DNA from: Myxococcales bacterium 68-20
Lineage (GTDB): Bacteria > Myxococcota_A > Polyangia > Polyangiales > Polyangiaceae
NCBI GenBank assembly: GCA_001899635.1
Contig: MKVQ01000042.1
Coordinates: 186,001-250,000, forward strand
Length of the DNA: 64,000 nucleotides
Direction of reading: 5' to 3'
Shown: piece by piece, positions 2,715 through 36,768 of the stretch
How the letters are laid out: each line of letters opens with the position of its first letter
Numbering within the stretch: the first letter of the stretch is position 1
Position numbers and translations under genes: made by a program
Notes under the pieces: model-generated
Database searches by the model: none
What the model saw: only the letters and a program-made list of their open reading frames with translations
What the model was told of the DNA's origin: nothing

Positions 2715-4325
2715 TCAGCCCGGGGTGCGAGAGGGGCTGGTCCGGGTGGCGGCCGCAGGGACGACGGGCGGCGGAGCCGCGTGGATGAGGCCCCTCGGGA
2801 GGAGGCTCGCTCCGAGACTGCAGAAGTAGAGGTACCCCCGGAGATCGCCGAAGCGCTCGGCGACGCGCTCGAGAGGAGCTCGAGAACCGAGGCGCAACAG
2901 GCCGCCGAGCCCACGAGCAACGCCCACATCGCCTGTCGGAAAGACGTCGAGGCGTCCGAGTCCGCGCAGCAGCACGAGGTCTGCGCTCCAGGGACCGATC
3001 CCTGGCAGCTCCATCAGGAGCCGGCGTGCATCGGTCGTACTCATCGCTGCGATCGCCTCCTCTTTCAGCTCACCGGAGGCGATCATCCGTGCGATGCCCC
3101 GCAGCGACTCGGCCTTGCGCGTGCTGAGGCCACACCCTCGCAGCGTTGCGGGGCGAGCGCCGGCGACGACGTGCGCCGTCGGAAACGCATGGAATCGCCT
3201 GCCGCCGATCTCGACGTACGTGCCGAAGCGCTCGACGAACCGCCCCGCGACGGCCACGCCCGCCTCGAGGCTCACCTGCTGGAAGGGCACCACGTTCGCG
3301 AACGCCTCGAACAGCGTGGGGAACCGGGGCGGTCGCATTCCGCGAAGCGCGACTGCCGTGGGACGAAGCTTGCGCTCGGCTTCGGCGACGCGCTGGATCG
3401 GCGCCGGATCCACATCGAGACCGAGCCCCCTCCGCACGACCTGCCCGAGCCCGGCGCGCGAAGCGGCTCGTTCGTCGCCGTGTCGTAGCGAGAGCCGGAC
3501 GTCGGGATGATCGATCGTCCCGCGGTTCTCCACCTCGAGGACGACGAGCTCGTTGCCTACGGAGAGAGCCCGCAGGTAGCGGCCTTCCTCCCAGACATCG
3601 ACCCGGTTCGTCGGCCTGCGCTGCAATACGCGCACGGTCGCCTCGAGATGAAATGGCGCCTGCGTGGAGAGCCGGGAGCAGTCGGACTCTTCGCCCGGGT
3701 AGGTGACGCGCTCGCCCTCCACCTTCGCAAACGGAGTGAGGCGGTGACGGCTCGAACGTCCGAGCCCGCTGATGTGCTCGACGTGGGCACCGCGGACGGT
3801 GAGCGCATCGGCGACGAGCGATCGGTGGCAACGCCACGGCACCGCCTCCGCGCACATGAGGGCGACTCGTCCCTTCGCCACCAGGACGCGGAGCTGCGCG
3901 AGCCCTTGCTCGAATCCAGGCGTCTGCATGTAGTCGGCGAACCCGCGGAAGCTGGCGTTGTGCCAGCCCGTATTGATCGAGTCCGCGCGCGCGTGGCGTA
4001 GTCCTCCGAGCGCCGGGAGATGTACGTAGCGAAGACCGCGAGAGCGAAGAGCCTCGGGAAGCGTGTCACCGTTGAACTGCGGGTTGTGGCGAGAGCGCGG
4101 AATCGTCCGGATGTCCACGAGCACGGACACGTCGAAGCTTCGGAGCAGCGTGACCAGCTCATCCAGCGTTCGCGTCGAGTGACCGACCGTATGGAGTCGA
4201 GCTCCTTTCCAGTCATCCTTATCGCTATCGCTCACACCGATCTCTATCGCGCGCGACGGGCGCCGGCCTTGGACCGGGAGCGACATCGTGCCCATCGTCA
4301 CGGCAGCGAGTCGGCGCGCACGCAC
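2715..4325 (-). CDS. DUF488 domain fused to AlkA-like DNA glycosylase
   Basis: One 536-residue frame holds two domains. Residues about 44-195 are DUF488, with VDIRTIP (70-76) and the family signature C-x-E...CHR (158-167). Residues about 225-525 form an AlkA-type DNA-3-methyladenine glycosylase: an N-terminal beta domain, then the HhH-GPD core with the hairpin LPGIGPW (440-446) and the presumed catalytic Asp466 in PTGD. AlkA enzymes cleave alkylated bases in base excision repair. DUF488 is a poorly characterised cytoplasmic family. No internal stop or frameshift separates the domains. The start is uncertain, with Met at residues 1, 11 and 14. It is divergent from gdhA. Confidence 0.85.
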   Translation of the reverse strand: MRARRLAAVTMGTMSLPVQGRRPSRAIEIGVSDSDKDDWKGARLHTVGHSTRTLDELVTLLRSFDVSVLVDIRTIPRSRHNPQFNGDTLPEALRSRGLRYVHLPALGGLRHARADSINTGWHNASFRGFADYMQTPGFEQGLAQLRVLVAKGRVALMCAEAVPWRCHRSLVADALTVRGAHVEHISGLGRSSRHRLTPFAKVEGERVTYPGEESDCSRLSTQAPFHLEATVRVLQRRPTNRVDVWEEGRYLRALSVGNELVVLEVENRGTIDHPDVRLSLRHGDERAASRAGLGQVVRRGLGLDVDPAPIQRVAEAERKLRPTAVALRGMRPPRFPTLFEAFANVVPFQQVSLEAGVAVAGRFVERFGTYVEIGGRRFHAFPTAHVVAGARPATLRGCGLSTRKAESLRGIARMIASGELKEEAIAAMSTTDARRLLMELPGIGPWSADLVLLRGLGRLDVFPTGDVGVARGLGGLLRLGSRAPLERVAERFGDLRGYLYFCSLGASLLPRGLIHAAPPPVVPAAATRTSPSRTPG

Positions 4326-4398
4326 CGCGTCGCGTGCGTCTTCGCGAAGCTCAATCTGGCATCGTGCCGCTTTCGACGGTGCTCGCTCGCGGCGGTAG

Positions 4399-5754
<1,356 letters not shown>

Positions 5755-5852
5755 CGGTCACCTCGCCTCCCTGAGCTCGACCTGCTCGTTCACGCGGAGG
5801 CGGCCCGCAGCCAACCACCTCACAGCCCGCGACCATTTGCGCTCCGGTCTGT

Positions 5853-5868
5853 GTCGATACGTATCGAC
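5853..5868. promoter_or_regulatory. 16-base perfect palindrome GTCGATACGTATCGAC
   Basis: A perfect dyad with no spacer lies about 100 bases after the gdhA stop and 95 bases before the next start. Its symmetry suits a dimeric repressor such as a TetR-family protein; no T-run follows, so it does not look like a terminator. No regulator is encoded next to it. Confidence 0.35.
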
Positions 5869-5962
5869 CGGCATCATTCGGCGCGCGAAGGATGGCGCAG
5901 TCGATCGTCTCGACGCGTCCGATGAGGCGGCCCCGAGCAACCACGTGTGCTAGCTCTGCAAG

Positions 5963-6937
5963 GTGACACGGCCGCTTCGCCTACGACCTGCGCTGGCGCT
6001 CGCGGCGGCGGCGCATGTCCTCGCAAGCTTGCCCCTCCTTGCGGTCCACACGACGGGCCCCGTCGAAGCGGTTGGCGAGGTCCACCACGAGATCTCGCTC
6101 GATATCGACTCGCCTCGACCCGAGGGCCTCGTTGCACCGAGCGACGCGCCGTCGGAAGCTCGCGCGAAGACCGAGGTCGCACCGTCCGCGAACGGCACGC
6201 TGTCAGCACACACGCGTGAGGCGCGCACGCCTTCATCGCCGGAGCCGGCCGTCGCGTCCGCGAGTTCGGCGGCGCCAGGCGCACCGTGGGCGTTCGATCC
6301 TCTCCGCCCCGCAGCGAGCGATATCGGGCTCGGCTCGCACTGGAAGACCGTCGTCGCGGCTGGTGCGGCTGAAGCGAACGGGCACGACGCCGGAGGCAAC
6401 CCACGCGACGACGCCCGCGCGGTCGAGCGTTCGATGCGCGACGAGCTCGCCGCGCACGACGCCGCGCTCGGTCTCGGACGGGCGAGCCCGCTCGTGTCTG
6501 CCCTCCACCGAGCGGCAGCGGCGACGAACGCGCCCGCGATCGGCGCGGCGACGCTCGAGGTGGAGTGCGATGCCAGCGGGGCCGTGATCGCCGCACGCGC
6601 CGACGACCGCGCCTGGGCTCCCGTCGCCGAGGCCCTCGTACGCAATATGGGCGGAAAGACGCTCCGCTTGGCACGAGGGGCACGAGGACTGCGAGCTCGC
6701 CTTCGCGTCGTGGCCGAACGTACGCTTCCGAGTGGCCCCCGCGGCGGCTCGAGCATCGGAGCCGTCCCCGATGATGCCCCGGGCGCGAACAAGGCGTGCG
6801 ACGGCGACGGCCTCGCTCGGCGGTGCGTCGCCGGCATGCCGCTCGGCGCCACGAACGCGCAGCATGACACGTCGAACCTCGGAGCAAGCGCTTCGCGGAT
6901 CGTCCGTGTGCAGCTGCTCGGAGAATCCGAGCTCTGA
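5963..6937 (+). CDS. membrane-anchored periplasmic protein, TonB-like layout
   Basis: The 324-residue protein has one N-terminal hydrophobic helix (about residues 9-28), then a long low-complexity Ala/Pro/Ser region and a compact C-terminal part (about 185-265) beginning ATLEVECDASGAVIAA, which loosely resembles the strand pattern of TonB C-terminal domains. That arrangement would suit an energy-transducer-like or envelope-spanning protein, but I cannot assign it to TonB with confidence. The start is GTG. Nothing beside it encodes ExbB or ExbD. Confidence 0.55.
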   Translation: MTRPLRLRPALALAAAAHVLASLPLLAVHTTGPVEAVGEVHHEISLDIDSPRPEGLVAPSDAPSEARAKTEVAPSANGTLSAHTREARTPSSPEPAVASASSAAPGAPWAFDPLRPAASDIGLGSHWKTVVAAGAAEANGHDAGGNPRDDARAVERSMRDELAAHDAALGLGRASPLVSALHRAAAATNAPAIGAATLEVECDASGAVIAARADDRAWAPVAEALVRNMGGKTLRLARGARGLRARLRVVAERTLPSGPRGGSSIGAVPDDAPGANKACDGDGLARRCVAGMPLGATNAQHDTSNLGASASRIVRVQLLGESEL

Positions 6938-22990: not shown

Positions 22991-23044
22991 ACGACCCGAC
23001 GCGCCGCCTCTTCAGTGGGCCGCCCTCGCCCGCCGACACAGTGA

Positions 23045-23065
23045 ACTTGAAAATCGTTTTCAAGT
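23045..23065. promoter_or_regulatory. Fur-family (Zur-like) operator upstream of rpsD
   Basis: A perfect 9-3-9 palindrome: ACTTGAAAA, TCG centre, TTTTCAAGT. The core TTGAAAATCGTTTTCAA closely resembles Zur boxes of the TGAAAATC-type known from actinobacteria. It sits 30 bases before the rpsD start and about 55 bases before the divergent kinase start, so it could control one or both. Low-GC bases in a high-GC intergenic region add weight. Confidence 0.65.
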
Positions 23066-23095: not shown

Positions 23096-23707
23096 ATGAG
23101 TCGTTTCACAGGACCGCGCGTGAAGCGCATGAGGGCGCTCGGGACGGAGCTGCCCGGTCTGTCGCCGAAGAAGATCGACAAGCGCCCCTACCCGCCGGGC
23201 CAACACGGACAAGGCCGGAAGAAGCTGACGGAGTTCGCTCTCCGGCTGCAGGAGAAGCAGAAGCTCAGGCTCAACTACGGCGTGACCGAGCTCCAGCTCC
23301 GCCATCTCGTCGAGGAAGCGAAGACGAGCAAGGGCGCGACCGGCCACAAGCTCGTGGAGCTCCTCGAGCGCCGGCTCGACAACGTGGTCTTCCGCGCCGG
23401 GCTCGCGCGCACCATCCCGGGCGCGCGGCAGCTCGTCAACCACGGCCACATCCTCGTGAACGGCAAGCGCGTCGACATCGCGTCCTACCGCGTGTCCAAG
23501 GGCGAGACCATCAGCGTCCGCGAGAAGAGCAAGAACCTCGCTTCGATCGCGGCGGCGAAGGGGATCGCCGACAACTTCCAGACGCCGTGGCTCGAGGTGA
23601 ACCGCGACGCGCTCAGCGCCGTCGTCGCCGAGCTTCCCGACGAGAACGCGGTGCTCTTCCCGCTGCGCGTGCAGCTCGTCGTCGAGTACTACTCCCAGCG
23701 TCTCTGA
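23096..23707 (+). CDS. rpsD: 30S ribosomal protein S4, cysteine-free form
   Basis: The 203-residue protein is a full-length S4: N-terminal domain with GPRVKRMRALG and RPYPPGQHG, then the S4 RNA-binding domain (about 90-160: LVELLERRLDNVVFRAG, GHILVNGKRVDI). S4 nucleates 30S assembly by binding 16S rRNA. It contains no cysteine at all, so it is the zinc-independent type. It is not next to rpsM, rpsK or rpoA, where S4 usually sits, and lies behind a Zur-like box. This suggests a second, zinc-starvation copy, though a unique rpsD cannot be excluded from this window. Confidence 0.95.
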   Translation: MSRFTGPRVKRMRALGTELPGLSPKKIDKRPYPPGQHGQGRKKLTEFALRLQEKQKLRLNYGVTELQLRHLVEEAKTSKGATGHKLVELLERRLDNVVFRAGLARTIPGARQLVNHGHILVNGKRVDIASYRVSKGETISVREKSKNLASIAAAKGIADNFQTPWLEVNRDALSAVVAELPDENAVLFPLRVQLVVEYYSQRL

Positions 23708-28834: not shown

Positions 28835-30151
28835 CTATCGGAACAAGTGCCGGAGGGCGAGGATCGTCGCGTGCATCTGATGCTGCGTGACGTCGATGCG
28901 GAGGTCCGGCTCGCTCGCGTGGTTCTGCACGCCGCCGGTCGCCTTGGGATCATCGATCGGCCCGAGCGCCGATGCGCGCGGATGACCGACCTGCCAGGAA
29001 AGGAGGTTCCCGAGGCCTTGATGAATCGCGCACGCGTATTTCGCCGAGCGTCGCGCGTCTCCTGTCTTCTCGGCCCATGCATACGCCGGAATCAGGCCCT
29101 CGTACGCATAGCCGGTATTCCGCTGCCGCCCGAGGACGCCATGTACGTCGAGCATCCAGTCGGCCAGTGAGAGGAGCCACTCGCCGTACGGCGCATCACT
29201 GCTCCACTTGGACGTCGCGAGCTCGTAGAAGGCCATCGACGACCACTGATAGTAGCCCTTCGTCGTGTCGGAGTCGGGGTCGGCGGCCAGCGCCTGCTGG
29301 ACGTTGACGCGATGCCCGGCGGCGGCGGCCTTCTTCACGATCGGGGCGAGATCGTCGCGTCCGAGGTACTTCATCGCTTTCACCAGCGCGAGCAGCGCCT
29401 CGCCGTCGTAGTACGAAGAGTGCGGACCAGAGGCGGCGCCCCCGTCGTAGTCGTACTTGCGGAACCAGAGCCCCTGGTCGTCGCGAGACTCGACGAGGTA
29501 GGCGACGTAGGCATTGGCCCGTGACGTCCACAGATCGATCGCGCTCCGGTCGTCCGGCGGTAGGCTGCGCACGTAGTCGATCACGGAGAGCGTGACCAAC
29601 GCCGCCATGCCGAGGCCGCCCGAATCGCGCGGTCTCCCTTCGACGGAGTAGGTCGGGAAGCGGCCGCCCGCCTTCGTCGTGCCGGCCCGGCCATCGAAGA
29701 AGCGAAGCCCCTTCTCGAGCGCAGGTCCGAGCGAGGCCGGCGCGCGCGGGGGGCCTTCGAACTGCGCGATCAGCGCGAGCCCCCAGAGCGCCCCCGCCTG
29801 ACGCACCTCGCTGTCGTCCGCCGCGTAGGTCTTCGCCTTCCAGTCGTAGAGATAATCGAAGTTCCCCGCCTCTCGCTGGTGCGCGACGAGGAACTCGGTG
29901 CCCAGCGTCAGGGACGTCTCGAGCTCGGCCCTCGTGAGCGACAGCTGGCAAGCACCTCCGTCGAGCAGGCCGCGAGCGGCGTCGCTCGCGTTCGGCGAGG
30001 GCCCGGCGACATGCTGCTTGCGCACGGCCACGCCGACGAAAACCACGGCGGCAAGGACCGCCAGCGACGCAACGATGAGACCACGCCTAGTAAGCACGTC
30101 ACCATGCGTAGACGATCCGTCGCCATACGTCACGATCGCGAGCGCTTGCAT
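28835..30151 (-). CDS. membrane-anchored alpha/alpha-toroid protein
   Basis: The 438-residue protein has one N-terminal membrane segment (about 24-45, after VLTRRG) and then repeated helical pairs with Gly-rich turns, including NFDYLYDWKAKTY, GALWGLALIAQF, SSYYDGEALLALVKAMKYLG and NTGYAYEGLIPAYAWAE. This resembles (alpha/alpha)6 toroid enzymes such as terpene cyclases, epimerases or polysaccharide-processing glycosidases. The catalytic residues cannot be assigned. It is the last gene of the DUF2271 operon, 36 bases after DUF3570, so an envelope role in that system is likely. Confidence 0.65.
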   Translation of the reverse strand: MQALAIVTYGDGSSTHGDVLTRRGLIVASLAVLAAVVFVGVAVRKQHVAGPSPNASDAARGLLDGGACQLSLTRAELETSLTLGTEFLVAHQREAGNFDYLYDWKAKTYAADDSEVRQAGALWGLALIAQFEGPPRAPASLGPALEKGLRFFDGRAGTTKAGGRFPTYSVEGRPRDSGGLGMAALVTLSVIDYVRSLPPDDRSAIDLWTSRANAYVAYLVESRDDQGLWFRKYDYDGGAASGPHSSYYDGEALLALVKAMKYLGRDDLAPIVKKAAAAGHRVNVQQALAADPDSDTTKGYYQWSSMAFYELATSKWSSDAPYGEWLLSLADWMLDVHGVLGRQRNTGYAYEGLIPAYAWAEKTGDARRSAKYACAIHQGLGNLLSWQVGHPRASALGPIDDPKATGGVQNHASEPDLRIDVTQHQMHATILALRHLFR

Positions 30152-30187
30152 CGCGGCCGGTGGTCGACGGTGCGCGACGTCTCACGA

Positions 30188-31462
30188 TCACTGGAACGCG
30201 CCTTCGAATGCCATCGCGGTGAAGATCGCCTGGCGCTGCGAGATGAACAGCGCGTCGATGAACGACGTATGCATTCCCGCAGCGCGGACGACGAACGCCG
30301 TGCGCACCGCCGCGAGACGCTGGGTCAGCGCCACTCTCAAATCCATGCCGACCGTGAGGATCGCGAGCGGGCCGAGCTCGCGATCGCCGGTGCGCAGCCT
30401 GGGGATCATGACGGCGCCGTCGGTCTCGGTCACCGTGGGAGCGCGTTGCCAGAAGGAGGCTCCGCTCTGCAGATGCAGTCGCACGTCGGGCGACAGCGTG
30501 GTGCGCTCCGACAGGTCCATCGCGTAGCGGCCCTCGGTCGTCGTCGCGAGCTGTCCCCACGAGTCCATGTACAGGCGCTCTTCGATGCGCAGCGTCGCCC
30601 ATCTCGAGCGATGAAGCCACCGACCGGTGGCCGCGTAACGCTCGCGTTCCGTGGGGAGCTGCTCGAGCGGCCGCTCGTCGCGTCGGAGCGCGTTCACGAG
30701 CGCGACGTGAGCTCCCGGCGGGACCTGCGGCGCCACCTGCGCGTCGAACATCGGGACGTAGCGGTAGGGCTTCGATTGATCGCCTCGCTCGACGACCACG
30801 TCGGCGCCGAGCCACAACACCGACGAGGGGCTCAGCACGAACGAGGCGCCCGCGGCCATCTGGTGACGAACGAGCGTGCGATGGAAGACGGAGAAGGGCG
30901 TCCCCGCCCGACCGATCGTGTCGTGGCCCAGCGCGTACGAGACGGCGAGCGTCACGTGATCGTCGTCGAGCTTCCACGATGGGCTCAGGCCGCCGCTGAT
31001 CGAGAGGTAGTCGGGCTCGACGGAGACGGAGGCCGAACCCGCACCGCGCAGGTCACCTGGTCCGTACGCGCCGTCGATGCTCACCGCGTGACGAATCTCT
31101 CTCCAGCGTGAGGATGCCGTGGACACGATGTCGACGGACGCGGCGCTGACGACATCGACGAGGTAGCGCGCGCCCACCGCCCAGCCCTCGGCGTCGTCGC
31201 GTATCCCCGCACGAGCGTTCGGCGCCACGACCGTGACGTTGTCGGTGTCGGCGTACGTCGAGAGCTCCGCCGAAGCTTCGACCGTCGCCCCCGTGGGCGG
31301 CGCGCCGGCGCTCGGAGTCGCGCTGCTTCCAGCGCCCTCACCGGCAGACGCCGGCTTGGCGAAGGCCGAGATCGAGATCGCGCACGCGAGTGCGAACAGC
31401 GCTCGCGCAAGTAGCCTCGGGAGGCCGAGTCGATCAGTTGCAGCCGCAGCCGCTCGTTGCAT
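30188..31462 (-). CDS. DUF3570 outer membrane protein
   Basis: The product (about 424 residues from the ATG at 31462; an ATG at 31504 is equally open) has a signal peptide ending near KPASA and then barrel-like alternating strands: GWAVGARYLVDVVSAASVDIVSTAS, HDTIGRAGTP, EERLYMDSWGQLATTTEGRYAMDLSERTTLSPDVRLH and a C-terminal FEGAFQ. These are DUF3570 features: a large barrel regularly encoded beside DUF4266. The start region overlaps DUF4266 by 29 bases and has GGGAG 6-8 bases upstream. Its function is unknown; transport or export of a redox-active ligand is a reasonable guess. Confidence 0.8.
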   Translation of the reverse strand: MQRAAAAATDRLGLPRLLARALFALACAISISAFAKPASAGEGAGSSATPSAGAPPTGATVEASAELSTYADTDNVTVVAPNARAGIRDDAEGWAVGARYLVDVVSAASVDIVSTASSRWREIRHAVSIDGAYGPGDLRGAGSASVSVEPDYLSISGGLSPSWKLDDDHVTLAVSYALGHDTIGRAGTPFSVFHRTLVRHQMAAGASFVLSPSSVLWLGADVVVERGDQSKPYRYVPMFDAQVAPQVPPGAHVALVNALRRDERPLEQLPTERERYAATGRWLHRSRWATLRIEERLYMDSWGQLATTTEGRYAMDLSERTTLSPDVRLHLQSGASFWQRAPTVTETDGAVMIPRLRTGDRELGPLAILTVGMDLRVALTQRLAAVRTAFVVRAAGMHTSFIDALFISQRQAIFTAMAFEGAFQ

Positions 31463-31637
31463 CGAGACTCCCGCCAACGGCGCCTTCCTGGACGGCGCGA
31501 ACATGTTGCTCTCCCGGCCCGATGACGCTCGACTGCGTCATGCTCGGATGCGCGAGCCGCCCGCGTTGATGAGGAGCGACGCGCGTGCAGCCAGCGGCCG
31601 CGACGAGGAGGACGATCGAGCACGCGACCTTCTTCAT
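31434..31637 (-). CDS. DUF4266 small lipoprotein
   Basis: The 67-residue protein has a lipobox (AAGC, Cys17) and ends in GCGCN, the hallmark of DUF4266, with EQH in its middle as usual. It overlaps the upstream gene by 1-3 bases and the downstream DUF3570 gene by about 29, showing tight coupling. DUF4266 is almost always found with DUF3570. The CxC tail could bind metal or take part in disulphide exchange, which is inference. Confidence 0.85.
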   Translation of the reverse strand: MKKVACSIVLLVAAAGCTRVAPHQRGRLAHPSMTQSSVIGPGEQHVRAVQEGAVGGSLDATSGCGCN

Positions 31638-32131
31638 CAGGGCCTCTCCACCTGCGCGCCGGTCGCGCACGCCGCCTCGTCGGTCTTCGTCGCGAGCCAA
31701 GAACGGAGGCAGACATCGCCCGATGTGCCGAGCGCGAACGGCGCTCCGCCCTTGTGGCTCTCCAGGCCGAGCGCCTTGCGAACGAGAGTGAGCCGCTCCG
31801 GTGCCGCGCCGCCTTCCGCGACGACGCGGGCGAAGAGCTCCGGCTCGAGTCCGACGACCGCGCGCAGGTTGGCCGCGTGTTCGTCCGTCGTCGTCGCACC
31901 GGCGCCCGGCGCGTCGTCGTCCGCCAGGCGGAGCCCGTCGTTGTGGAAGAGACGCAATGGTCGCCCCGACTGGCCGTGGCAGTCGAGCGAGCCACACCGC
32001 GCGCCGAGCATCTCGCTCACGCTCGCCCATCCTTCACGCGGTGGGCTGCCCGCCTGCGGAGCAGCTTCGGCGCCGGAGCACGCAAGAGCCGCAAGCGCGG
32101 TCCACCCGGCCGCGAGCCAAACACGCGTCAT
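31637..32131 (-). CDS. lipoprotein with CX4CH haem-like motif
   Basis: The 164-residue product has a signal peptide with a probable lipobox ending at Cys18, then CGSLDCHG (Cys46, Cys51, His52), a CX4CH motif instead of the usual CX2CH, and later two cysteines (DVC, AAC) and LESHKGG. CGSLDCHG-type motifs with following LRLF occur in deltaproteobacterial/myxobacterial cytochrome-like proteins. Haem attachment is plausible but not certain. Start and stop overlap both neighbours by 4 bases (ATGA), so it is translated as part of a polycistron. Confidence 0.7.
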   Translation of the reverse strand: MTRVWLAAGWTALAALACSGAEAAPQAGSPPREGWASVSEMLGARCGSLDCHGQSGRPLRLFHNDGLRLADDDAPGAGATTTDEHAANLRAVVGLEPELFARVVAEGGAAPERLTLVRKALGLESHKGGAPFALGTSGDVCLRSWLATKTDEAACATGAQVERP

Positions 32132-32652
32132 GGGCACCCACTCGCGTCCATGGGGCGCGGGGTGCCGAAGAGGTAGACGCGTCCCGCGCTCGATCTCGAG
32201 GTCCGATCGTCGTGGCACGAGGCACACGAGCCGTCGCGCTGCACGGGCGTATCCATCTCGATGCGGTAGCGACCTGCCTCCAGCGCGACGAACAAGGGAT
32301 AGCGAGGCGCGAAGTCGGCGGGCTCGACGAAGAAGTTACCCGCGCAGTTCGTGGCGGCACGGAATGTCCGCTTGTCCGCGTCGACGAGCTCGACGACGAC
32401 CCCCGGCGCGGGGTCCGGCGCGTCGGCGGTCACGAAGACCGTGCCGGCGACGGAGAACTCGCGGGCCGACGAGCGGCCGTCGTGGCACACGACGCATGGC
32501 TGGCCGGCACGGTGGAGCGGCCCGGGCGGGACTCCCGCGGCCTCGGGGCCGAGCGCTACGATCGTGCGCTCGCGAAGCGGGTCGTCGCATCCGAACGCGA
32601 GCGCCACAGCCAGAAGCACTGCGAGGCCGGGCCACACCGAGCTCACGGTCAT
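32128..32652 (-). CDS. di-haem cytochrome c-like lipoprotein
   Basis: The 174-residue protein has lipobox AFGC (Cys22) and two canonical CXXCH motifs, CVVCH (53-57) and CASCH (143-147). Between them lies a carboxypeptidase-regulatory-like beta domain (GTVFVTADAPDPAPGVVVELVDADKRTF). It should be a periplasmic or surface di-haem electron carrier needing the cytochrome c maturation machinery. ATGA overlaps on both sides place it second in the operon, right after the predicted flavinylated DUF2271 protein, which suggests electron transfer between the two. Confidence 0.82.
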   Translation of the reverse strand: MTVSSVWPGLAVLLAVALAFGCDDPLRERTIVALGPEAAGVPPGPLHRAGQPCVVCHDGRSSAREFSVAGTVFVTADAPDPAPGVVVELVDADKRTFRAATNCAGNFFVEPADFAPRYPLFVALEAGRYRIEMDTPVQRDGSCASCHDDRTSRSSAGRVYLFGTPRPMDASGCP

Positions 32653-33332
32653 GGCAGCGGGACGATCCGGAACCCTCGGGACGTCGCGTCGTCGGGGACG
32701 CTCGCCGCGCTCACGGAGGCCGCGAGCTCGAACGGAAGAAGGCGATGAGGTCCAGGCGGGCTCTCGGTCGAGGAGTTCTCTTCGGTGAACTCGAGGTGAA
32801 CGACGTACGAGCCGGGCGCCACCGCTGCGCCTCGAGCGTCACGACAATCCCACGCCACGATGTGAGCACCGGCGCTCCTACGTGTAGCGCCCGTGATGGC
32901 GTCGACGTCGTTGCCGTTCGACGACGCCTGCCAGGCCACCGCATGCTCGAGCCGCTTGTTCCCCCACACGTCGAGCGTGCGCACGAAAGCGCCCGACGCC
33001 GTCGCGATCCAGATCGCGCCGACGTTCTCGGGCGCATACTCGCCTCGATAGGAGATCGTGGTCACCTCGACACGCGCGCACGCGCCGCTCGGTACGGCGC
33101 CACCGTCTCCGGCCGTGTCCGTCCCCGACTTCTCGCCGCCCGCTCCCGTACCGCGTCCTTCCCCCGCGTCCGCGTTCTTCTCGCCCTCGCTCGCAAGCCC
33201 CGGTCTGCGATCCCAGTACGACGCGTCCGTGCGCGTCGGATCGCACGCCATGCCGAGTGCCGCCGCGCCGAGCAGCCCGATGACGTGCAAGCCGACCTTG
33301 CCTCCCTGAAGCGCCGCTCGCGAACGCACCAT
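32649..33332 (-). CDS. DUF2271 lipoprotein with FMN-attachment motif
   Basis: The 227-residue protein has a signal peptide with a Cys at residue 30 (GMAC), a low-complexity Gly/Asp/Glu linker (about 45-82) and a DUF2271 domain (about 88-205) with YAPENVGAIWIATASGAFVRTL, VDAITGATR and HIVAWDCRDARGAAVAPGSY. DAITGAT (144-150) fits the Dxx(S/T)GA(T/S) motif that ApbE uses to attach FMN to a Thr, here Thr150. It is the first gene of the left operon, behind a Fur-family-like box. The start at 33332 was chosen because it opens the signal peptide. No apbE gene is in the window. Confidence 0.85.
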   Translation of the reverse strand: MVRSRAALQGGKVGLHVIGLLGAAALGMACDPTRTDASYWDRRPGLASEGEKNADAGEGRGTGAGGEKSGTDTAGDGGAVPSGACARVEVTTISYRGEYAPENVGAIWIATASGAFVRTLDVWGNKRLEHAVAWQASSNGNDVDAITGATRRSAGAHIVAWDCRDARGAAVAPGSYVVHLEFTEENSSTESPPGPHRLLPFELAASVSAASVPDDATSRGFRIVPLP

Positions 33333-33358
33333 GACCGCCGCGAGCTTCCTAGCACCGT

Positions 33359-33387
33359 TTGTTGAAATTGAAAATCGGTTGCAACAA
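33359..33387. promoter_or_regulatory. Fur-family-like box in divergent promoter
   Basis: Inverted arms TTGTTG (33359-33364) and CAACAA (33382-33387) flank GAAATTGAAAATCGGTTG. The part TTGAAAATCGGTTGCAA matches the rpsD-upstream palindrome at 14 of 17 positions. It lies 27 bases upstream of both divergent starts (33332 and 33414), so a single repressor could shut off both gene sets. Confidence 0.5.
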
Positions 33388-33413
33388 GTCGGGTTCGGCG
33401 ATACCCGAGACAC

Positions 33414-34313
33414 GTGGGTCGCCGTCGTCTGCCATCGACCGCGTTCCTGATCGTCGGGCTCGCGCCTGCGCTCGCGCATGCCGACGCAGCGAGCTCCGAG
33501 CCCGCTGCGCTGGAAGAGAGCACGTCTCGAGAGGACGCAGCGGAAGAGAGCGGGCCTCGAGAGAGCGCGCCACCGGAGATGCCTGCGCCCGCGACCGCCG
33601 CCACGGCCAATGCCAATGCCCCCGAGGCCCGCACCGCGCAGCGGTCCGAAGCTCGCCGGTGGGTCTTCGTATCCTTCCGCCAGGACCTCGCGTGGGTGGA
33701 GGGCGACCACGTCTGTTCTCCCGAGGTCCAGCGAAGCGGCGACTTCAGCTGCTTTCGCGCGAACGGCACGCAGTACCTCGGCACGCCGCGAAGCGAGGAC
33801 GCAGCGAGCGCGAGCGGCCTCTCGGTGGCGACGACGCGCCTCCTCGCGACCTATCAGCATTTCGTCGGGACGCACTGGTCCGTCGGCGCCGTCGTCGGGC
33901 TCGTGCTGCGCGGCGGCGGCCCGCGTCCGGTCGGACGTGACGCGCGCGAGTTCTTCCCCTTCCACCTCGAGGGGCAGCTCTCGTGGTGGCCGTCGGGCGC
34001 GCCTGCACGCGGCGAAGGCCCCTCACCGTTCCTCCTGCTCGGCGGAGGGCTCGCGCAGATCGACAGCCGCTTCTCGCTCGCCGTCCGCGAAGACCCGCGC
34101 GCTCCGCTTCCACCGTCGCAGCTCGACAACCCCGAGCGACAGACGCTCGACGTCTACAAGAAGAGCGGGACGGGCTTCGTCGGTCTGGGCGGCGGCATTG
34201 CCGCCTCGACGAGCAGCTCGCTCCTGTGGAGGCTCGCCCTCGAGGCGATGGGCTCGTTCCCGGCGTTCGGGATCGGCGCAGGTCTGGAGGCAGGCGTTGG
34301 CTTCGACCTCTGA
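33414..34313 (+). CDS. outer membrane beta-barrel-like protein
   Basis: The 299-residue product starts at GTG with a signal peptide (LIVGLAPALAHA). An Ala/Glu/Pro-rich linker follows to about residue 75, then strands such as RWVFVSFRQDLAWVEGD, THWSVGAVVGLVLRGGG, FPFHLEGQLSWWP and FLLLGGGLAQIDS, ending GLEAGVGFDL. This is the pattern of a small outer membrane barrel. It is the first gene of the right-hand set and overlaps the next gene by 17 bases. Confidence 0.72.
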   Translation: MGRRRLPSTAFLIVGLAPALAHADAASSEPAALEESTSREDAAEESGPRESAPPEMPAPATAATANANAPEARTAQRSEARRWVFVSFRQDLAWVEGDHVCSPEVQRSGDFSCFRANGTQYLGTPRSEDAASASGLSVATTRLLATYQHFVGTHWSVGAVVGLVLRGGGPRPVGRDAREFFPFHLEGQLSWWPSGAPARGEGPSPFLLLGGGLAQIDSRFSLAVREDPRAPLPPSQLDNPERQTLDVYKKSGTGFVGLGGGIAASTSSSLLWRLALEAMGSFPAFGIGAGLEAGVGFDL

Positions 34314-35802
34314 CACGCAGCGGCCGGCCCGCTCGCTCGGGACGCTCCTTCTCGCAGGCGCCGCGCTCGCGACGACGCAGCTCCTCGCGGTGCGCGAGCT
34401 CGTGAGCGCGCTCTTCGGAGAGGAGGTGGTGATCCTCCTCGTCACCGCCACGCTCTTCGCGGCCATCTCGTTCGGATACTGGCTCGCCCCTCGAATGCGA
34501 CGCTTCGGACGCGCTGGCCAGATCGCGTTCGTCGCCGGCTGCCTGCTGCACCTCACCCTTCCCGTGCTGCCGCGCCATGCCTTCGCCTGGCTCGCGGCGC
34601 ATGGGTGGAACGGCACCGCACCGCTCTTCGTCGCGATCGTGCTCGCCGTCGTCCTCCTCGCGCCCCTCTCGACGTTGCTCCCGCGCGCCGTCGCCAGCTA
34701 CGCCGATCCCGTCCAGGGCATGCGATGGAGCTACACCGCCGAGCTCGTCGGGTTCTTGCTCGGCCTCGGGCTGACGCAGCCCTGCTTCGGTCACGGGATC
34801 GAGGTCCTCCTCGCACTGCACTGGACGCTCCTCGCGCTGGTTGCCGGGCTCGCGCTCGGGACCCGTGCGCTCGCCGTCGTCGCCGTCCCTGCGATGCTGC
34901 TCTGGCCCTCGCTCGCCGCACGCTCCCGCGCCGCGAGCAACGCGCTCTATCGGGACGTCCACGGCATGCGCTCCGCGGACGTCGTCTTCTCCGTCGACTC
35001 TCCCTACCAGCGCGTCGAGGTCGTCGACAGCGGAGCCGGGCGTCGCTCGCTCTACCTCGACGGCCTCGAGAACCTGAACGCCGGCGATCTCGCCCTCCTC
35101 AACGAGTACCTCGCGGTCGTCCCCGCGCGGCTCGCACGGCCCTCCAGCACGCTCGTGATCGGCAACGGCACGTTGTCGCTCGTCGCACCGCTCGGAGCGT
35201 TGTCGAACGAGCTGCTCACGGTGGAGATCGACCCGGTCGTCATCGCGGCCGGCGAGCGCTTCTTCAGCCCGAACGCAGGGCGAGCCAACCTCTCCTGGAA
35301 GCTCGCCCTGGGCGACGGCAAGTCGTTCCTCGCGAGCACGAACCAATCGTTCGACCTCGTCGTGGTCGACGTGCCGAGCCCGCTCACGTTCCAGGAGGCA
35401 TTCCTCCACACGCGGGAGTTCTACGCGCTCGTTCGCTCACGACTCACGCCTCGCGGCGTCGTCTCCGTCCAGCTGAGCGGACATCGCCTCGGCGCGCTCG
35501 AGCGCTCGCCGTCGCGAGTCACCGCCGCGCTCGCCGCGGAGCTCCCCGAGGTCCTCGTCGTGGAGAGCGTCGTCGCCGACCGTGCGTTCGCATACGCGTC
35601 GTCGAACCTTCCCTTCCACGCCGACGACGTCCGAGCCTTCGCGCCGCCCTCCGAGACGCAGCTCGTCGTGATCGATCCCGAGACCGTACGCGCGCGGACG
35701 GGCGGCGCCCATCCGCTCGACATCGACTCACTCGATCTCGTGCTGCGCCGCGGCCTCGAGCGCCTGATCGACCGCCGAGCGAGTGGAGGCGGAGATGGGT
35801 GA
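34297..35802 (+). CDS. membrane-bound spermidine-synthase-like enzyme
   Basis: The 501-residue protein begins at a TTG with GGAGG six bases upstream. Residues about 10-210 contain six to seven hydrophobic helices. Residues about 235-460 are a spermidine-synthase-like Rossmann domain: LYLDGLENLN, VIGNGTLSLVAPLG (nucleotide loop), LLTVEIDP (acidic end of strand 2), GDGKSFL and FDLVVVDVPSP. Aminopropyltransferases use decarboxylated SAM; membrane-fused relatives are poorly understood. GNGTLS replaces the usual GGGDGG and DVPSP replaces D-(S/T)-DP, so substrate or activity may differ. The signal is strong for fold, weaker for reaction. Confidence 0.78.
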   Translation: MASTSDTQRPARSLGTLLLAGAALATTQLLAVRELVSALFGEEVVILLVTATLFAAISFGYWLAPRMRRFGRAGQIAFVAGCLLHLTLPVLPRHAFAWLAAHGWNGTAPLFVAIVLAVVLLAPLSTLLPRAVASYADPVQGMRWSYTAELVGFLLGLGLTQPCFGHGIEVLLALHWTLLALVAGLALGTRALAVVAVPAMLLWPSLAARSRAASNALYRDVHGMRSADVVFSVDSPYQRVEVVDSGAGRRSLYLDGLENLNAGDLALLNEYLAVVPARLARPSSTLVIGNGTLSLVAPLGALSNELLTVEIDPVVIAAGERFFSPNAGRANLSWKLALGDGKSFLASTNQSFDLVVVDVPSPLTFQEAFLHTREFYALVRSRLTPRGVVSVQLSGHRLGALERSPSRVTAALAAELPEVLVVESVVADRAFAYASSNLPFHADDVRAFAPPSETQLVVIDPETVRARTGGAHPLDIDSLDLVLRRGLERLIDRRASGGGDG

Positions 35803-36310
35803 GCGCCGTGCGAAGATCATCGCGAGCGTGACCGGATTCCACTTCGCCGCGCTCCAGGTGGGCGCGTTCCTGGCGGTCCAGAGCGTCTCGTCATCGGCCT
35901 GGTCGACCTACGCAGCGCTGACCTCCGCCTGGCTCGCCGGGACGTTGTTCGGGCTCTGGGTCACGCTCCCGGCCCGCCCGACGATCCTCGCCGGTGTCCT
36001 CGCATTCGAGGGACTGGTCGGCTTCACACGTGTAGCGCCGTGGTCGCGGTGGATGTTCGTCTTCGGCATCGCCGCGGTCGCCGTCGGAGGTCTCTGGGCC
36101 GGCGGGTTCTTCACTCGCGCCGCGAGACGCCGCGCCACGGACGGCGTGTTCCTCCACGAGAACAACGGCTTTCTACTCGGTCTCGTAGCGACTCCGTTCG
36201 CCTTCGCCTTCGGTGGACGCACGGCGCTCGCAGCGCTCCCGCTCATCACGGCGGCGGCGCTCTTCGGGCTGGACCAAATATCGACACAAGAAAGGAGACT
36301 CGAACCATGA
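35795..36310 (+). CDS. small integral membrane protein, partner of spermidine-synthase-like enzyme
   Basis: The 171-residue product has five to six hydrophobic segments (for example FHFAALQVGAFLAVQSV, LVGFTRVAPW, MFVFGIAAVAVGGLWAGGFFTR, GFLLGLVATPFAFAFGG). The chosen ATG overlaps the previous stop by 8 bases and has GGAGG 5 bases upstream. In larger fused membrane spermidine synthases a second bundle of helices follows the first; here it seems to be a separate polypeptide, so the two products probably form a complex. That is inference from context. Confidence 0.6.
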   Translation: MGERRAKIIASVTGFHFAALQVGAFLAVQSVSSSAWSTYAALTSAWLAGTLFGLWVTLPARPTILAGVLAFEGLVGFTRVAPWSRWMFVFGIAAVAVGGLWAGGFFTRAARRRATDGVFLHENNGFLLGLVATPFAFAFGGRTALAALPLITAAALFGLDQISTQERRLEP

Positions 36311-36768
36311 CGCGTACCCTGCTCCTCACATCCGTTCCCGTCGTCGCCGCCGCCTCGGTGGCCGCATGCATGTCGGTCGACGATACGCCTGGCGTGGCGG
36401 TGGCCAAGACACCGAGCGGCGACGGCGAGGACGCCGGCCCCAAGAGCCGCAGCGACGGCCCCACCAGCGCCTCGCCCGACGCGGCGACCGGATGTCCCTC
36501 ACACGCCGAGGACGGAGCGACCCTCGCCGGGTGCTGCCTCGCCACCGGCCGCTGCGGCTACTTCGTCCCGAGCCTCAATGCCTGCACCGATCCCGTCCAG
36601 CTCGGGCTTTCGAGCAGCGAGACGACGTGCACGTACGATGGCTCGTCGACCGGCGAGGACGATGACGACAAGGACAAGGACAAGGACAAGGACAAGGACA
36701 AGGACAAGGACAAGGACAAGGACAAGGACAAGGACAAGGACAAGGACAAGGACAAGGACAAGGACTGA
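36307..36768 (+). CDS. lipoprotein with C-terminal (Asp-Lys)16 tail
   Basis: The 153-residue protein has lipobox VAAC (Cys21), a Cys-rich middle (GCPSHAEDG, GCCLATGRCGYFVP, NACTD, TTCTYDG) and an acidic run EDDDD followed by sixteen Asp-Lys pairs and a final Asp. The tail is perfectly alternating in charge and could act as an extended surface brush or metal/polyanion-binding arm. It overlaps the upstream stop (ATGA), so it is the last gene of the right-hand set. It shows no homology that I recognise. Confidence 0.72.
   Translation: MTRTLLLTSVPVVAAASVAACMSVDDTPGVAVAKTPSGDGEDAGPKSRSDGPTSASPDAATGCPSHAEDGATLAGCCLATGRCGYFVPSLNACTDPVQLGLSSSETTCTYDGSSTGEDDDDKDKDKDKDKDKDKDKDKDKDKDKDKDKDKDKD
36667..36765 (+). 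repeat. perfect tandem hexamer GACAAG x16
   Basis: Sixteen uninterrupted GACAAG units plus GAC encode the Asp-Lys tail just before the stop. Because the unit is 6 bases, copy-number change by slippage would keep the frame and only change tail length. Confidence 0.97.

Follow-up and report, generated by a model that had tools for sequence, protein, structure and literature searches.

What does a locus do in which genes for flavin- and haem-type lipoproteins stand back to back with a gene for a membrane protein resembling spermidine synthases? The question is raised by ten divergently arranged genes of Myxococcales bacterium 68-20, a soil organism, located at positions 28835 to 36768 of a 64,000-nucleotide stretch of contig MKVQ01000042.1 (henceforth the window; its genome is G000 among our genome labels, and loci are labeled L). 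An earlier note on this DNA had proposed a metal-responsive flavin/haem redox system with a right arm that makes or exports a polyamine-like ligand. We now favor, at a probability of about one half, a Fur-repressed electron-transfer system of the cell envelope, built on flavin and haem, that would reduce ferric iron for iron acquisition. Of the earlier interpretation as a whole, the Fur-type box, the flavin and haem genes and their linkage held up, while the polyamine ligand did not.

Flavin-associated genes of the left arm

All ten genes are present, and gene calling repeated with a second caller recovered each of them except the smallest, DUF4266, with shorter versions of the CX4CH and barrel genes. 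At the Pfam cut-offs used for all domain matches, DUF2271, DUF4266, DUF3570 and Spermine_synth are recognized among the ten proteins; the CX4CH, toroid, barrel and small membrane proteins gave no Pfam match in the same search. The left arm, on the minus strand, opens with a DUF2271 lipoprotein of 227 residues (32649..33332; PF10029, 48.8 bits at a cut-off of 27.3), which joins the family match to an [S/T]GA[S/T] acceptor motif, DAITGAT, in a genome that encodes ApbE. The flavin part of the earlier note thus stands, with haem-motif lipoproteins conserved alongside. An additional FlgD_ig match of DUF2271 was set aside as an immunoglobulin (Ig)-like overlap of no functional meaning. Further along the arm lie a small DUF4266 lipoprotein with a C-terminal CGCN (31434..31637, minus strand; PF14086, 39.3 bits at a cut-off of 27) and a DUF3570 protein (30188..31462, minus strand; PF12094, 67.9 bits at a cut-off of 25), whose open frame begins at 31504 and whose start at 31462 is suggested by the Labilithrix orthologues (G003 and G006 are of this genus, as is G000). 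DUF3570 carries the acceptor region SAASVDIVSTAS, and a spaced acceptor pair occurs in 12 of the 13 aligned DUF3570 proteins, our own included; Gly is found in the first motif of two of them (L074 and L077) and in the second motif of none.

DUF2271 and DUF3570 have been shown to be ApbE substrates at [S/T]GA[S/T], DUF3570 at two sites, and a TGAT-type site is the flavinylated position in another DUF2271 (Meheust, 2021, PMC8238504; this and the other papers cited here are drawn on as excerpts). The left arm is a variant of these ApbE-flavinylation systems, and flavinylation of DUF2271 and DUF3570 is predicted from their motifs. In G000, ApbE has one match (C44) and DsbD_TM two, all outside the locus; of 12 genomes of the genus, 11 have ApbE and none has FMN_bind. 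Among 58 genomes, DUF3570 is missing from 6 of the 7 that lack ApbE versus 8 of the 51 that have it (Fisher p 4.5e-4, uncorrected for descent); the exception, G012, has DUF3570 without ApbE, in an assembly that is 80% complete.

G000 holds two more clusters, L167 (C43) and L168 (C48), in which DUF3570 is accompanied by di-CXXCH and CX4CH lipoproteins; the DUF3570 proteins of these clusters have a long N-terminal extension (698 and 626 residues). Two irregular gene calls were seen elsewhere. DUF3570 of Minicystis rosea (L071, 8503-9707) matched as two overlapping pieces in different frames, from a broken gene or a sequencing error, and a CXXCH protein and DUF2271 share a single open frame at 3233-4816 of L029, as a fusion or through a missed stop.

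Two conserved haem-motif lipoproteins

Between DUF2271 and DUF4266 lie two lipoproteins with haem-attachment motifs, both on the minus strand. The di-CXXCH lipoprotein (32128..32652), with an Ig/CarboxypepD-reg-like middle, keeps both CXXCH motifs in 8 of 8 aligned sequences. In the CX4CH lipoprotein (31637..32131), the lipobox Cys, CX4CHG and another His are shared by all 13 aligned sequences, the motif itself being non-canonical. No known cytochrome domain scored above cut-off in either: the cytochrome matches of the di-CXXCH protein fall below it (Cytochrome_C7, 19.9 versus 24.8), and CX4CH has none in Pfam. A structure model of the CX4CH lipoprotein is helical, with a predicted local distance difference test (pLDDT) score of 83, and found no match in a fold search of the PDB. 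From the conserved motifs we infer that both lipoproteins bind haem. Relatives of CX4CH occur in 115 of 377 sampled genomes of the phylum, and their places often coincide with those of DUF3570 (some compared by eye, uncounted).

Gene overlaps tie the left arm together, though less uniformly than the earlier note had it. ATGA overlaps join DUF2271 to di-CXXCH and di-CXXCH to CX4CH, but CX4CH and DUF4266 meet in TGATG, a 1-base overlap; DUF4266 and DUF3570 overlap by 29 bases if DUF3570 starts at 31462. The gap of 36 bases between DUF3570 and the last gene of the arm was given correctly. That gene, a peripheral member, encodes a toroid-like protein without a Pfam match (28835..30151, minus strand), with a counterpart in G006 and none in the available G003 stretch.

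DUF3570 is predicted to form an outer-membrane barrel

Where would the flavins of DUF3570 be placed? We modeled the protein from 13 sequences (mean pLDDT 79). The model has 16 long strands by our count, with 111-124 taken as one, and loop length alternates, with 2 to 7 residues in even-numbered loops and 3, 13, 2, 9, 44, 4, 33 and 7 in odd-numbered ones. Both acceptor Ser residues sit in the 13-residue third loop, modeled at low confidence, on the long-loop side, and in porins this is the outer side. OmpG, FadL, CymA and further barrels of the outer membrane head the PDB matches listed, with E values of 2e-9 to 1e-6 over the first 50. Since their template modeling scores are about 0.3 to 0.6, the fold class is supported and no close relative is indicated; on this model, DUF3570 is predicted to be an outer-membrane barrel.

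Linkage of the genes in relatives

How tightly are these genes held together elsewhere? Linkage was scored as profile matches within 8.5 kilobases (kb) of DUF2271 at 17 loci chosen by their DUF2271 (the window, L024, L025, L026, L027, L029, L030, L033, L070, L071, L072, L074, L075, L078, L079, L080 and L082). DUF3570 was found at all 17, CX4CH at 16, DUF4266 at 14, the barrel of the right arm at 10, di-CXXCH at 8, and the spermidine-synthase-like (SpdSyn) protein with its small partner, like the charged-tail lipoprotein, at 3. The only locus without CX4CH, L070, is on a KSB1 contig that ends 0.6 kb past DUF2271. Several contigs among the 17 are short, and the loci are not independent, because three come from G044 and three from Labilithrix. 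L028, with DUF2271 at a contig end, was left out of the counts, as were L164 and L170, since it was CX4CH or the small membrane protein that had led to these and counting them would be circular; each of the two has DUF2271, DUF3570, CX4CH, DUF4266 and a charged-tail lipoprotein. The cluster of L027 includes DsbD and a thioredoxin-like gene, that of L070 includes ApbE (Pfam), and those of L075, L078 and L079 include DsbD (read by eye).

Comparison of neighborhoods found the two arms conserved together in relatives, so that the earlier note was not refuted by its own check: they are joined in three Labilithrix genomes and in one genome of another family (L164), but each module also occurs alone. 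The right arm did not hold as one unit, as the barrel profile at 10 of the 17 loci goes with the left arm. Judged by its neighbors, the small outer-membrane-barrel-like protein (33414..34313, plus strand; the start may be 33414 or 33579) groups with the left arm, and the SpdSyn-like protein, its small partner and a lipoprotein with a run of Asp-Lys (DK) repeats form a second module.

A Fur-type box in the shared promoter

A box, TTGAAATTGAAAATCGGTTGCAA, sits in the divergent promoter together with a weaker second box 6 bp away (33359..33387, strand unassigned); its core, TGAAATTGAAAATCGGTTGCA, is shared unchanged by G003, and G006 departs from it at 2 of 21 bases. The delta-proteobacterial Fur box is WTGAAAATNATTTTCAW, and paired boxes of Desulfovibrio are offset by 6 bp (Rodionov et al., 2004, PMC545781). 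Searching the window with TGAAAATNATTTTCA at up to 3 mismatches gave 2 matches in 64 kb versus 0.08 expected, a number reached by 1 of 100 shuffles. Across G000, up to 2 mismatches gave 13 places versus 1 for a backwards control, and iron-type genes (TonB receptors, imelysins or a PepSY_TM gene) neighbor 6 of the 13, two of them sharing one imelysin. A scoring matrix was built from 12 of these sites (one in the window was omitted, and the locus box is not among them), so it is Labilithrix-trained. With it the locus box scores 17.7 and ranks 2 of 63,986 window positions, and the orthologous box ranks 1 in the G003 and G006 stretches. Motif search and matrix rank thus bear out the earlier claim of a metal-responsive box, which by these matches is a delta-type Fur box. 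Fur control of the locus is predicted, and the locus is probably switched on under iron shortage.

Sites also accompany related genes. In G484, sites of ranks 1 and 2 lie between DUF3570 and CX4CH; in G005 a site scoring 25.7 precedes the imelysin-SpdSyn operon; a rank-1 site stands before the charged lipoprotein-DUF3570 pair of G158; G024 has a site of 13.6 before DUF2271 and two stronger ones at its oxidase-DUF3570 run; and Minicystis L071 has a weaker pair (15.8 each), farther upstream, before a same-strand run into the cluster. Fur acts directly on a DUF2271 operon in Caulobacter, and this operon supports fitness and growth under ethylenediaminetetraacetic acid (PMC11870441).

Control by Zur, through zinc, was considered and rejected; it had been raised by a like site before a ribosomal protein S4 gene and by a half-box resembling the Desulfovibrio ZUR half-site (PMC545781). 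We prefer Fur because 6 of the 13 other sites lie beside iron-type genes. With a score of 29.7, the S4 site (23042-23062) outranks every other Fur-type site of the window; it lies 57 bases ahead of the gene (23120-23707). The N-terminus of this S4 protein is without the Cys cluster usual in S4, and the protein may be a metal-sparing copy.

The second module

What might the remaining genes, all on the plus strand, contribute? The membrane protein at 34297..35802 has a spermidine-synthase-like domain (PF01564, 47.1 bits at a cut-off of 22.9) with an altered active site. It is followed by a small membrane partner of 175 residues (35783..36310) and a lipoprotein (36307..36768) whose 16 DK repeats had been counted correctly; all Pfam matches of the latter fall below cut-off, and homologues occur in G003, G005 and G006. 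Genes overlap here as well, by 17 bases between barrel and SpdSyn (TTG start) and by ATGA between the small protein and the DK lipoprotein. SpdSyn and the small protein adjoin in nine genomes (G000, G003, G006, G005, G163, G142, G484, G455 and G406), as parts of longer frames in G455 and G406. The pair adjoins the left arm in G000, G003, G006 and G484. In G005 the order is imelysin, fatty acid hydroxylase, SpdSyn pair, DK lipoprotein and CXXCH lipoprotein, and in G163 the pair comes after a di-CXXCH lipoprotein; no haem-motif gene was present in the stretches read around the pair of G142 (Minicystis), G455 and G406. Matches to the small protein come from 8 of the 377 sampled genomes of the phylum, and three of these are weak (E 2e-4 to 6e-4). 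In Minicystis rosea (G142), the pair occurs in two tandem copies (L112, 7159-11041), with about half a megabase separating them from the left arm.

The G003 assembly breaks within the DK repeat, and a contig end with the remainder of a repeat of this kind starts beside a DNA-ligase-like gene. The right flank looks syntenic in the genus, since the locus borders on this gene in the window and in G006 too; none of the left-flank genes of the window was matched in the G003 stretch. The lipoprotein of G484 resembles the DK lipoprotein in its tail only, and tblastn at 1e-10 gave no match. A charged tail was found in 2 of 288 other genes, both of them other copies of the DK protein, in control loci that are non-random. 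DK runs alone are unspecific: four in a row occur at the DNA level (frame unchecked) in 50 of 317 genomes of the class. Among the matches listed, the long runs are part of this module in G000, G003, G005 and G006; in G167 the protein concerned is unrelated.

Could the SpdSyn-like protein make a polyamine? The acids of GGGDG and DxxDP hold the amine groups in spermidine synthases. Compared with the plant enzyme, GGGDGG has become GNGTLS and DSSDP has become DVPSP; all 7 relatives have replaced the GGGDG acid and the second DxxDP acid and retained the first Asp of DxxDP. Because two active-site acids are replaced, a polyamine product is unsupported, and an enzyme that makes polyamines is unlikely on this alignment.

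A different product is conceivable, though a long shot: the enzyme and its partner might alkylate the lysines of (DK)n, giving a silaffin-like, amine-decorated, metal-binding protein that would feed iron to a 'flavoporin', a DUF3570 bearing its flavins on an outer loop. Wherever the pair and a charged-tail lipoprotein occur together, the tail has lysines (5 of 5: G000, G003, where it is split between two contig ends, G005, G006 and G484), and lysine is missing from the charged tails at DUF2271 loci that have no pair (L025, L170 and a short tail in L071). Counting against lysine alkylation, no (DK)4 run occurs anywhere in the pair-bearing genomes G142, G163, G406 and G455; the search covered (DK)4 as the only run composition, and the G163 contig ends behind the pair.

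Proposed function and alternatives

How might these parts work together? We envisage that, when iron is scarce, Fur would leave the shared box and both arms would be made. ApbE, encoded elsewhere, would attach flavin mononucleotide to DUF2271 and probably also to DUF3570, whose acceptor region would be held on a loop of the long-loop, outer side of the outer-membrane barrel. Thiol carriers such as DsbD may supply electrons to the CGC protein DUF4266. The flavins and both haem-motif lipoproteins would relay them onward, reducing ferric iron that is at the outer membrane or beyond it, and the cell would then take up the ferrous product. The charged lipoprotein might keep metal ions close, and the SpdSyn-like membrane protein may modify a partner, perhaps this lipoprotein.

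Several observations weigh against ferric reduction under Fur. ApbE, DsbD and thioredoxin are all missing from the locus (Pfam, ten proteins). Only 4 of 8 aligned DUF2271 relatives have TGAT, the rest having TSAT, TAAT or TAGT. The motifs of our DUF3570 read SAAS and STAS, with both Ser acceptors kept and Gly lost in both, so that it does not have two [S/T]GA[S/T] motifs. G010 has ApbE and no match to DUF2271, DUF3570 or FMN_bind, and ApbE in the genus may serve NqrB/RnfD, another substrate, for which no search was made. As to the operator, 7 of the 13 sites stand beside genes without an obvious iron role, the locus box is degenerate in one half (3 mismatches), and with the Labilithrix-trained matrix the 17 loci yielded a clear fitting site in the window, L024, L026 and L025, a weaker pair in L071 and nothing in the remaining 12. 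The uptake step is affected too: yeast-like reductive uptake through FTR1 was rejected as unsupported in Labilithrix, the permease being absent from all four genomes tested there (it is present in 3 of the 10 searched overall). Finally, copper-linked genes adjoin the clusters of some relatives.

Copper is therefore the best other metal, since such genes neighbor L030 and L074: MbnB/TglH/ChrH-family and DUF2063 genes adjoin the first cluster (430-2186), and MbnP and CCP_MauG genes the second (4285-6356). With an MbnB-like gene end in L169 (3-437, read by eye), these hint at a possible copper-metallophore link. In L025 (11219-14529), moreover, a multicopper oxidase is followed by an acidic-repeat/charged lipoprotein and DUF3570. 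The system might thus serve copper or a copper-dependent step, its thiol, flavin and haem carriers altering the redox state of envelope copper, but the window locus contains none of these genes, its box matches a motif found beside iron-type genes, and the L025 oxidase, with two strong Fur-type sites upstream, could be a ferroxidase; we give a copper role less than half the weight of iron. Equally tentative is the idea that the arms are separate operons sharing a promoter region, with the redox system confined to the left arm and the barrel. This would fit Minicystis, G406 and G455, where the stretches read show the SpdSyn pair and no haem-motif gene, and also the absence of the pair from 14 of the 17 loci, some of them on short contigs. 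Against separation, L164, from another family, has both arms, and between them stands a lipoprotein whose tail is of DK type; in G005 and G163, the pair is next or near to a CXXCH lipoprotein (identity to P0001, 35% and 26%).

Two further alternatives are much less probable. The idea of a polyamine-like metal ligand, made or exported by the right arm, draws on a Spermine_synth match above the Pfam cut-off, located behind membrane helices, and on the retained first Asp of DxxDP; the two replaced acids, which differ also from those of solved enzymes, and a score of 60 bits for the speE equivalog at a cut-off of 250 speak against it and make this version very improbable. A respiratory (dissimilatory) electron exporter like the porin-cytochrome conduits would account for an outer-membrane barrel together with haem-motif lipoproteins. 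Yet the locus has only three haem motifs and no multihaem protein, and control of the iron-limitation type suits uptake, so we consider export scarcely more probable than the ligand. Iron acquisition by a Fur-repressed flavin/haem system remains the reading we favor.

Comparison with known systems

How does the locus compare with systems already described? It resembles the DsbD-type cluster of ApbE, DUF3570, DUF4266 and a thioredoxin-like gene (PMC8238504) in placing DUF3570 next to a DUF4266 with a CXC end, and relatives have DsbD and a thioredoxin-like gene (L027) or ApbE (L070) within the cluster. It differs in its SAAS/STAS acceptor motifs, in having no ApbE, DsbD or thioredoxin of its own, and in the added CX4CH and di-CXXCH lipoproteins, DUF2271 and SpdSyn/DK module. 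With the PepSY-type DUF2271 cluster, proposed for ferric reduction (Meheust, 2021, PMC8238504; Caulobacter CCNA_03155-03159, PMC11870441), it shares a DUF2271 with a flavinylation motif and a link to Fur, but none of the ten locus proteins is of the PepSY or DUF4198 type. DUF3570 and DUF4266 are sparsely covered in the literature searched, whose available excerpts contained no mention of a CX4CH partner of DUF2271/DUF3570/DUF4266 flavinylation systems. Like the fused major facilitator superfamily (MFS)/spermidine synthase proteins of NF037959, the SpdSyn-like protein has membrane helices ahead of its spermidine-synthase domain; unlike them, it scores 36.9 bits at a cut-off of 40 and has an altered active site and a separate small membrane partner.

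In the MtrCAB-type porin-cytochrome conduits, a barrel and haem lipoproteins cross the outer membrane. Our locus likewise combines a barrel with haem lipoproteins and suggests a crossing of the outer membrane, but it is without a multihaem cytochrome, and its flavin acceptor region is on the barrel itself. Conserved haem-motif lipoproteins, an iron-type operator and a predicted barrel together point to a concrete role for these families, namely that of flavin systems carrying electrons at the outer membrane in the service of iron uptake. Should this be so, the outer membrane would here be crossed by flavins in place of a chain of haems.

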